Shown here in pieces: positions 35,941 to 38,496 of a stretch of DNA of 43,474 bases; the first letter of the stretch is position 1; the number at the start of each line of letters is the position of its first letter. The notes under the pieces were generated by a model. The model ran no database searches and was not told where the DNA came from. It was given only the letters and a program-made list of their open reading frames with translations. The translations under genes and the position numbers were made by a program. The DNA comes from a virus: the IMG/VR virus record IMGVR_UViG_3300023179_000192, positions 1-43,474 of that record, one strand, 5' to 3'.

Positions 35941-36579
35941 ATGGCAAAATCATTAGAAGGCGTCCTGGTCAAAAAAGCGCACCAGCCTGAAATTTTTACA
36001 GAACAGCAGATTCTGGAATTTGCCAAATGTGCTGATCCAGTCTCCGGACCGGAATATTTCATGAGTCAGTATTTCTATATACAGCATCCCACCAAGGGGC
36101 GCATGTTATACGAGCCGTTTGATTATCAGAAACGACTAATACACACCTACCACAATTATCGATACAGCATTGCTCTGATGCCCCGACAGACTGGCAAATC
36201 CACTAGTGCTGCGGGATATTTGCTCTGGTATGCCATGTTTGTTCCCGATTCCACCATACTAATTGCCGCACACAAATATACTGGTTCACAGGAAATTATG
36301 CAGCGTATCAGATACGCCTACGAGTCAGTGCCTGATTTTATACGTGCAGGCGCAGTGAGTTACAACAAAGGCAGTATAGATTTTGACAATGGCAGTCGTA
36401 TACTTTCAACCACCACCACAGAAAACACTGGTCGGGGTCTGAGTATTTCGCTAATGTACTGTTTAGATGGTGACACCACAGTGGTAAGAATTAGAAACAA
36501 GCAAACATTGGTTGAAGAAGACATAACACTTCGAGAATTATATTACCGGATATATGAACCAAATAAAACCATTGGATAA
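35941..36579 (+). CDS. gp17: Large terminase gp17, N-terminal half fused to N-intein
   Basis: A 212-residue product made of 173 residues of the terminase ATPase domain followed by a 39-residue N-intein. The extein has FDYQKRLIHTYHNYRY, Walker A MPRQTGKST (80-88), LIAAHKYTGSQEIMQRIRYAYESVPDF and STTTTENTGRGLSISLMY, stopping one residue before the acidic Walker B core. From C174 the sequence is CLDGDTTVV, the classic first block of an intein, ending at a stop codon after DITLRELYYRIYEPNKTIG. The other half of the intein and the rest of gp17 are encoded from 37117. After trans-splicing the enzyme would have about 520 residues, normal for gp17. ATPase function requires joining, since Walker B and the nuclease are in the other half. 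Confidence 0.9.
   Translation: MAKSLEGVLVKKAHQPEIFTEQQILEFAKCADPVSGPEYFMSQYFYIQHPTKGRMLYEPFDYQKRLIHTYHNYRYSIALMPRQTGKSTSAAGYLLWYAMFVPDSTILIAAHKYTGSQEIMQRIRYAYESVPDFIRAGAVSYNKGSIDFDNGSRILSTTTTENTGRGLSISLMYCLDGDTTVVRIRNKQTLVEEDITLRELYYRIYEPNKTIG
36460..36576 (+). other. N-terminal half of split TerL intein (39 residues)
   Basis: Begins with the nucleophile Cys174 and G-D-T-x-V of splicing block A, and ends before block B. This break point is much earlier than in canonical split inteins (about 100 residues). It agrees with the atypically split TerL inteins described from lake metagenomes (AceL-TerL type), whose N-piece is about 25 residues. Confidence 0.85.
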
Positions 36580-36593
36580 TGAGTTTGAATTTG

Positions 36594-36634
36594 CATAAAT
36601 ACAAAATACCAAGTTGACGAGTATCACTTAAATA
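36594..36634 (+). promoter_or_regulatory. Late promoters CATAAATA and CTTAAATA
   Basis: Two late-type octamers (36594-36601 and 36627-36634) in the gap between the TerL N-half and the 125-residue ORF, which has AGGAA at 36657-36661. The intervening ORF therefore appears to be expressed late on its own. Confidence 0.55.
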
Positions 36635-36668
36635 CAGCGGTGGCTGGAGTAAAACAGGAATATGTACG

Positions 36669-37046
36669 ATGAGACCATTACTATTCTATACAAACGATAA
36701 TGACTACTTACAAGACACGAGTCATCAAAAGTTTTTAGAAGAACTATTTGGTGTGGGTGTGGAAACTTATCCCATAGCAGAGCATAGAGAACAGTATGAT
36801 CATATTCATACACCTGAGTATTTTCCAGGAACAGACATACCAATGCCCACATCATGTTGGTGCCAAATTCCGGACAATGACGATCCAATTTGGCCCAAAT
36901 TGTATTTCAATCCAGAGCGTGCAGATACATGGAAAGGCCCAGTGAGATTCGTGGCTAAAGGTAGTGATATTTTTAAATTAACACTTGACGATATACATGC
37001 AAGATTTGGTACCAATATTAGTGGGCCGGGCCCATGGGAAGTGTAA
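36669..37046 (+). CDS. Unknown ORF between the split intein halves
   Basis: A 125-residue protein I do not recognise. It is Pro-, Trp- and Asp-rich (HIHTPEYFPGTDIPMPTSCWC, then DPIWPKLYFNPERADTW) and ends GPVRFVAKGSDIFKLTLDDIHARFG then GPGPWEV. It shows no LAGLIDADG, GIY-YIG, HNH or Vsr-like/EDxHD motif that I can see, although homing endonucleases are the usual occupants of such gaps in fractured phage genes. It has its own late promoters and an AGGAA site 7 nt before the ATG. It could be a diverged or new homing enzyme, a cargo gene that replaced one, or a phage protein unrelated to the intein. Confidence 0.65.
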   Translation: MRPLLFYTNDNDYLQDTSHQKFLEELFGVGVETYPIAEHREQYDHIHTPEYFPGTDIPMPTSCWCQIPDNDDPIWPKLYFNPERADTWKGPVRFVAKGSDIFKLTLDDIHARFGTNISGPGPWEV

Positions 37047-37072
37047 TGAATTTAAACGAAGGCGACCACATA

Positions 37073-37094
37073 TTCTAACCCGCAGATGTTAGAA
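37073..37094 (+). promoter_or_regulatory. Hairpin before TerL C-half
   Basis: TTCTAAC (37073-37079) and GTTAGAA (37088-37094) are perfect complements with an 8-nt loop. It has no T run. It lies between the inserted ORF and the C-intein start, where no late octamer is evident; an mRNA processing or stability role is possible. Confidence 0.4.
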
Positions 37095-37116
37095 ATCCAA
37101 CGAAATTGCTAATGGT

Positions 37117-37452
37117 ATGAATCAATATTACGCTCCTAATACAGAATATGAAATTCTAACACCTCAGGGTTGGGAAGATTTTGACGGTGTCTTTCTTAAT
37201 CAAGATGCAAACAAGCAATCTCAAAAAATAATTTTTGCAGATGGATCTTTCGTCATAGCCACAAATGAACATCGATTTTTTAAAAATAAATCAGAGACTC
37301 AAGTTCAGGACTTACGAGTTGGTGATTCATTGGATTCAGTTACTGGGCCTAAAGAAATTTGTCAAATTCAAGAGTGTGTGCTGACTAACACATATGAAAT
37401 TTTTAACGCTACTAATCATGTTATTATCGCAAATAACATACATTCGCATCAA
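37117..37452 (+). other. C-terminal half of split TerL intein (112 residues)
   Basis: Contains block B with T-x-x-H (T49, H52) and an RVGDSLDS turn. The C-terminal blocks are [20 protein letters not shown] with penultimate His111 and final Gln112, then Cys+1. Most inteins end in Asn; Gln is rare but known to splice in some inteins. The N-terminal stretch [16 protein letters not shown] looks like the start of AceL-type TerL C-inteins. Confidence 0.85.
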
Positions 37453-38496
37453 TGCGACGAGTTTGCCTTCGTCAGACCCACCATTGCCAGAGAATTCTGG
37501 ACTTCAATAAGTCCCACCCTGGCCACTGGTGGTAAATGTATTATTACCTCAACCCCCAATTCAGACGAGGATCAGTTTGCCACATTGTGGAAAGGCGCTA
37601 ACCGGTGCCAGGATGCGTATGGCAACCACACTGAAATCGGGCAGAATGGGTTCAAGGCATTCCGTAGTTATTGGAATGAACATCCGGATCGAGACGAGAA
37701 GTGGGCAGATGAGCAACGAGCACAACTTGGTGAAGATCGGTTCCGCAGAGAAATGAACTGTGAATTCATTATCTGGGATGAAACATTGATTAGTCCTGGG
37801 TTTCTAACAGAACTAGAGGGTCGAGATCCCATGGAAAAGCAAGGTCAAGTCAGATGGTGGCGTCGACCCGATCCCAACATGACGTATTTGGTAGCGTTGG
37901 ATCCCAGTCTGGGAACTGGTGGTGATCCTGCAGCCATACAGGTATTTGAGTTACCCAGTTTTACTCAGGTGGCTGAATGGCAACATAATCGAACTCCTAT
38001 ACAAAAGCAGATAGCCATTATGCGAGAAATTCTCAGATATCTGGCAGAAACGGTGTCAGCTAATAATATCTATTACAGTATAGAAAACAACACTCTGGGT
38101 GAGGCTGGATTGGTTACCATTGCGGAGATAGGCGAGGAAAACATCCCAGGAAACTTTCTCAGTGAACCTGCCCGCGCCGGTTCTGGACGCAGATATCGCA
38201 AGGGATTTACCACCAGTAACAAATCCAAACTCAGTGCATGTTCCAAATTAAAAAACCTATTAGAGACTCGTCGACTGACTGTTTGCAGCAAGAATTTAAT
38301 TAGTGAATTAAAAACTTTTGTGGCCAATGCCAATAGCTATGCCGCCAAGCCCGGAGAAACAGACGATTTAGTCATGAGTCTGATATTGATCATACGTATG
38401 GCTCAGTTATTGCAGACGTATGATGCCAATCTGGATACTGCCATGCGAGATGGCGTAGATCAGATCATCGAGCCCATGCCATTTATATTATTGTAG
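37117..38496 (+). CDS. gp17: Large terminase gp17, C-intein plus C-terminal half
   Basis: A 459-residue product with a 112-residue C-intein (37117-37452) followed by 347 residues of terminase. The extein starts C113-DEFAFVRP, which completes the Walker B segment LMY-CDEF. It continues with the coupling motif [14 protein letters not shown] and the RNase H-like nuclease: D262 in [14 protein letters not shown] and D416-D417 in [12 protein letters not shown]. The intein part holds block B ([10 protein letters not shown]) and ends [10 protein letters not shown] before Cys113. The start at 37117 has no good Shine-Dalgarno; an overlapping ATG-GTA-TGA precedes it out of frame. Head-filling translocation and headful cutting are the known roles of gp17. 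Confidence 0.9.

Follow-up and report, generated by a model that had tools for sequence, protein, structure and literature searches.

A predicted split intein at the Walker B motif of a phage large terminase and its family of putatively modular elements

The window analysed here is a 43,474-bp virus fragment (record G000) with one terL, which, as the initial annotation had held, is encoded as two separate ORFs in the same direction, 35941-36579 (212 aa) and 37117-38496 (459 aa); neither a second nor an uninterrupted large terminase gene is present in this record, itself only a fragment. The first ORF opens with a 173-aa TerL N-extein (35941..36459, + strand) that matches Pfam Terminase_6N and a PHROG terminase profile and shows, along its length, 74-90% identity to uninterrupted relatives. 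It carries the Walker A motif LMPRQTGKST (36175-36204, +) and ends in SLMY, directly 5' of the Walker B Asp-Glu pair. This is followed by a 39-aa N-intein (36460..36576, +; CLDGDTT...NKTIG, CLDGDTTVVRIRNKQTLVEEDITLRELYYRIYEPNKTIG) that begins with Cys1 and runs up to the stop codon at 36577-36579. The second ORF opens with a 112-aa C-intein (37117..37452, +), with a block B TNEH at 37261-37272 and a terminal His-Gln at 37447-37452. The 347-aa C-extein (37453..38493, +) then starts with Cys+1-Asp-Glu-Phe (CDEFAF) and includes the Walker B acidic pair (37456-37461, +) and the nuclease domain, with the stop codon at 38494-38496 (+). It matches the remainder of Terminase_6N, Terminase_6C and PHROG 36964 (E=2e-81). 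Upstream of 37117 no start codon occurs back to the preceding in-frame stop, and no strong ribosome-binding site was seen.

The point at which the terminase is broken could be located precisely. In the terminase profile phrog_36964 the match of the N-half reaches position 522 at residue 174 and that of the C-half begins at 521 with residue 112; hence, the profile meets at the predicted junction. Removal of both intein parts yields SLMY|CDEF, a rebuilt Walker B motif as the initial annotation had predicted, and the same junction, mostly SISLLY-C/A-DEFAFV, is found in uninterrupted relatives: of the 80 closest environmental relatives, 76 have a terL that is continuous (gap 0) at the exact split point. 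Given this continuity, and 55 distinct loci with homologous N- and C-inteins at the same point, the split is not a chance event. For a single metagenome-derived record one might suspect an assembly or sequencing artefact; we regard this as hardly credible, since the same split position recurs, across many samples, in about 50 further distinct loci and the ORF in the gap is conserved elsewhere.

Profile searches and structure prediction, both of which had been put forward as checks of the intein assignment, bear it out. The window C-intein alone retrieved CatC from the PDB (E=4.5e-4) and also gp41-1, while a C-intein profile built from five relatives recovered CatC (2.9e-13), gp41-1 (1.7e-8), VidaL (3.8e-5) and the DnaE and DnaB inteins; the Pfam intein match of the single sequence is below the cut-off. 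An AlphaFold2 model of a joined homologue (L118, 159 aa) has a pLDDT of 92.3 and a pTM of 0.85, and its top Foldseek matches are all inteins. We also modelled the window halves on one tether as a read-through of the gap in a single chain, with stops as Ser and a shallow alignment: here the pLDDT is 96-97 over both intein parts (about 97 for the N-intein) and below 50 in the linker, and the model, with its predicted HINT fold, has intein matches including 6qaz, 6dsl and 6vgv. With the first helix (residues 24-32) at the end of the N-intein and block B on the C-intein side, the split is S2-like and resembles that of AceL and GOS-TerL (PMC13014065). It is next to impossible that the interruption is instead a group I or II intron that is removed as RNA. 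Phage ICP1 does splice its terL at the RNA level (PMC10448857), but here what is conserved on both flanks of the gap is the protein, including the motifs and fold of an intein, and the window has no intron match in Rfam.

The catalytic positions are strongly conserved. Cys1, block B TxxH and Cys+1 are each present in all 55 occupied loci, and the penultimate His, as His-Gln, is found in every one of the 35 members of the C-intein class to which the window belongs. The C-terminal Asn, which is typical of class 1 inteins though not obligatory, is absent, being Gln throughout the same 35 loci, and position 4 of block F is Glu instead of the usual Asp. Since Gln, Glu and Asp are all accepted at the C-terminus as variants of class 1, the window element stays a class 1 intein; a terminal Gln is slow in two PolII inteins and works better than Asn in CIV RNR (PMC4031507). 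That an entire clade is fixed for Gln suggests adaptation, not decay. The C-inteins evolve under constraint (dN/dS 0.05-0.30): between the window and L083, where synonymous sites are near saturation, dN is 0.23 and dS 1.80 in the C-intein and 0.24 and 1.73 in the N-intein, with dN/dS about 0.13. Taken together, the catalytic residues and this ratio indicate a candidate working split intein with an AceL/GOS-type early split. One could instead picture decayed intein halves, with TerL as two non-covalently associated chains that retain their intein tails: the window endonuclease is gone, and genes-in-pieces that function without splicing exist, a phage ribonucleotide reductase being cited in PMC10448857. 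We hold this to be very unlikely, because both halves are under purifying selection and keep all nucleophiles, and the break falls within the Walker B strand, adjoining the catalytic Asp-Glu.

The preferred reading of a split intein invites comparison with AceL-TerL, GOS-TerL and the engineered Cat (6dsl), which resemble the window in being TerL split inteins with an S2 split, a short Int-N and a long Int-C, and differ from it in the 39-aa Int-N, the C-terminal Gln and the Glu at F:4 of the window element. PMC13014065 and PMC11766414 give 15-37 aa for published atypical Int-N and 37 + 115 aa for GOS-TerL. The description of the N-intein as very short therefore does not hold: at 39 aa it exceeds the published range, and this is the modal length in its own family (28 of 51 split loci). 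The proposed likeness to AceL stands for the split position before block B and probably fails for the insertion site. In relatives of the window, AceL/Cat-like C-inteins occupy a separate downstream site, RREx|...|CEFL (the AceL/Cat-like TerL site NCEF), which is unoccupied in the window C-extein (37759-37767, +). In L091 the C-intein at the CEF site matches CatC with E=3e-10, a closer match than the 4.5e-4 of the window C-intein, and hence, as judged from these Cat-like relatives, the home of the AceL/Cat lineage is most likely the CEF site and not the Walker B site Y|CDEF. A third site lies at Walker A (RQxGK|...HN|T), with inteins in L127, L154, L145, L084, L111, L126 and others, some of which also have one at CEF. 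In L127 and L154 the Walker A, Walker B and CEF sites all carry inteins; thus, three inteins can break one terL. In L032 (1281-3906) a joined Walker B intein and a split CEF-site intein (N-fragment of 92 aa) are found in the same terL.

Between the two halves the window lacks the endonuclease ORF that marks fractured genes, and in its place has a 125-aa ORF of unknown function (36669..37046, +) with no recognisable homing endonuclease domain: it has no Pfam or NCBIfam match and nothing better than E=0.27 in PHROG. A search for an endonuclease remnant in the gap returned no HMM signal in any of the six frames. The one relative found for the 125-aa protein, 56% identical, lies amid ordinary phage genes (L177:4001-4375), the other genes of the stretch examined not being terL; the two share the ending GTNISGPGPWEV. 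In most split loci of the family, a near copy of the start of the C-extein (GACGAGTTTGC.TTTGT = DEFAFV) comes right after the N-intein, commonly with 13-18 of 19 nt matched, compared with about 9.5 on average after shuffling, and in most it is followed by a TATAAATA box, which we take to resemble the T4 late-promoter box. The conserved leader of the endonuclease loci, TGACGAGTTTGCATTTGTATAAATAC, thus appears to be made up of this C-extein echo and a T4-late-promoter-like box, and the echo may be a record of endonuclease entry. When the sequences are placed side by side, the window keeps a matching leader, TAATGAGTTTGAATTTGCATAAATAC (36577..36602, +), as a putative footprint. As the leader is retained and an unrelated ORF follows it, the endonuclease was presumably once there and was then replaced.

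Two other window genes deserve mention. One (31666-32403) codes for a membrane protein with three His boxes (HRLFSH, HGHRQHHR and HKIHH) that resembles fatty acyl desaturases; its only Pfam match is a sub-threshold one to FA_hydroxylase, and it is possibly a host-derived metabolic gene. The other, at 9778-16830, is an ORF of 2350 aa that consists of degenerate repeats (TLALPNATDITG..., NLLNTTATTLNVGGAAT...) and probably encodes a structural protein resembling a fibre.

Alignments of the N- and C-inteins, used to scan viral contigs, recovered 55 distinct loci occupied at the Walker B site, the window included; no relative was confirmed in contigs of cellular genomes. Fifty-one are split, nearly all at the same position as in the window, and four are joined (L103, L118, L032 and L075). 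An ORF of at least 250 aa separates the halves in 41 of the 55. In L102 the endonuclease ORF is truncated, and L084, L101/L104, L110, L135, L137 and L148 are without it and still split. The joined L118 and the split L125 have N-inteins identical over 111 nt and C-inteins with 99% DNA identity, against only 68% in the C-exteins; likewise, the C-intein DNA of the joined L103 and the split L105 is identical. As to the direction of these apparent changes, re-joining after loss of the endonuclease is the simplest reading. On the extein tree, parsimony requires at least 14 interchanges between occupied and empty alleles, four of them forced by starred branches, and the nearest extein relatives of the window (at most 92% identical) are empty alleles. 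Cys+1, invariant in the occupied alleles, is found in 38 of the 76 empty ones (p about 6e-12, with loci that are not independent), the other 38 having Ala, Leu or Met at +1. Its presence in every occupied allele is expected if persistence of the intein requires working splicing. This family, together with the terminal Gln and the missing endonuclease, goes beyond what the initial annotation had read in the locus, whose core claim of an intein split early, before block B, at Walker B is supported by sequence, fold and comparative evidence alike.

The C-inteins fall into two clades, one of 35 that end in His-Gln, including the window, and one of 20 that end in Lys-Asn (19) or His-Asn (1). These classes go with different endonucleases: an HNH-like motif is present in the adjacent ORF in 27 of 29 cases of the His-Gln class and in none of the second, and for a Vsr-like motif the pattern is reversed, with none in the His-Gln class and 14 of 15 in the other (Fisher p about 3e-11, with loci that are not independent). 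The endonucleases of the relatives have no convincing Pfam or PDB match; the Vsr-like ORFs have a motif resemblance to I-Bth0305I (YYFYDLTIP...IEYQSxAWHA) and match PHROG 22677 and, weakly, 559. The N-intein and the N-terminal part of the endonuclease ORF are common to both classes. A single change of class, with a support of 100, suffices on the C-intein tree; a tree of the N-intein and endonuclease N-domain requires 11, at least four of them forced by strong branches, which is no better than with shuffled labels. A direct view of such a change comes from L085 and L146, which are about 100% identical over the N-half, the N-intein and the first ~420 nt beyond it, drop sharply to about 40% in the nuclease domain and about 50% in the C-intein, and return to 97-100% exactly from the C-extein. 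The contrast recurs, at greater divergence, in the pairs L119/L136, L129/L159 and L117/L156. Hence, nuclease domain and C-intein seem to be exchanged together, as a single cassette. Chimeric assembly is not favoured as a source of this pattern, as four pairs from different contigs show it with the same breakpoint, although in the cleanest pair, L085/L146, the N-type side is represented by one contig. We think it probable that the family is modular and mobile: an N-intein plus endonuclease DNA-binding domain would recombine with a nuclease domain plus C-intein, always at the same breakpoint within the endonuclease gene, and the split intein could re-join, or lose or exchange the middle gene, as in the window. 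Such recombination would mean that, in nature, one N-intein serves two C-intein classes about 39% identical.

Related arrangements have been described or occur in cultured phages. The fractured genes that others cite from Dassa et al. (2009) share with this family the two gene halves with intein pieces and an endonuclease ORF between them, of about 250-420 aa in most relatives of the window; they differ from the window, which is without it, and from the family, which alternates two nuclease types on a shared N-terminal domain. In Pseudomonas phage MIJ3 a split intein in PolB has an HNH endonuclease ORF between its pieces (PMC6892783); like the window terL, this jumbo-phage gene is in two pieces, but it is PolB and not TerL, the TerL of MIJ3 itself being uninterrupted. 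For Campylobacter phage IBB_35, a terminase broken up by both an intein and an intron has been described (PMC3322345). In Salicola phage SCTP-2 (MF360958.1; L082, L178, L179) TerL is found only in pieces, as three genes scattered over 440 kb, each bearing intein parts where the protein is broken: gp534 (429,356-429,748), gp267 (256,428-257,321) and gp224 (215,993-218,077). It shares the Walker B site with the window (SLLY|CLDGETT and NVSQ|CDEF) and has an HNH-type endonuclease, gp225, adjoining the C-half; it differs in the dispersal of the three genes and an extra Walker A split intein. The Walker B N-intein of SCTP-2 is longer than 90 aa, and a block-B-like stretch is seen both in it and in the C-half, so that the fragments seem to overlap. 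The Campylobacter fletcherviruses, with the N-half in 39 records, also have an atypically split Walker B intein, in which the N-half ends in FIDE followed by an N-intein of about 30 residues (CVAGDTKITVRNKKTGVIEDITMEELYNRIG) and the C-half runs MYEVLTPNGF...VSHN|CAF. Unlike in the window, the insertion lies after the DE (FIDE|CAF), about three residues downstream, and the halves are about 24 kb apart, at 79480-80196 and 104043-105371 in vB_Cj_QDYZ (OQ515481.1; L183, L184). As SCTP-2 and the fletcherviruses grow with TerL only in pieces that bear intein halves, reconstitution in trans must work in vivo; the literature searched gave no report of it for these phages.

With the coding, predicted fold, conservation and family established, we consider it highly probable that the window genes are a split TerL with an S2-type 39 + 112 aa class 1 intein whose endonuclease has been lost. 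The predicted course of splicing, for which sequence and model are our guides, would be as follows. The N-half and C-half would be translated separately, and the N- and C-inteins would associate and fold together into a HINT domain. Cys1 would then begin an N-S acyl shift, Cys+1 would accept the N-extein and the terminal Gln, in place of Asn, would cyclise, releasing an intact TerL joined as ...SLMY-CDEF... with Walker B restored. Packaging would need this splicing. The ancestor of the element would have belonged to a mobile family with a free-standing homing endonuclease between the halves. That gene appears to have been lost from the window element, in which an unrelated phage gene fills the gap, and the element is thus probably no longer mobile on its own.

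There have so far been few examples that speak to how inteins split and whether splitting reverses. The environmental-phage family of such mix-and-match elements is large and barely described, and within it nature supplies a series of states for a single site in an essential gene: empty; split around an endonuclease; split with the endonuclease truncated, lost or replaced; and joined, including joined and split pairs with almost identical halves. Exchange of the nuclease and C-intein cassette would explain how two intein classes share one N-intein, and it predicts cross-reactive intein pairs, which would offer new ligation tools. Finally, with the dispersed TerL halves of cultured Campylobacter phages, whether packaging waits for protein splicing becomes a question that can be asked directly.
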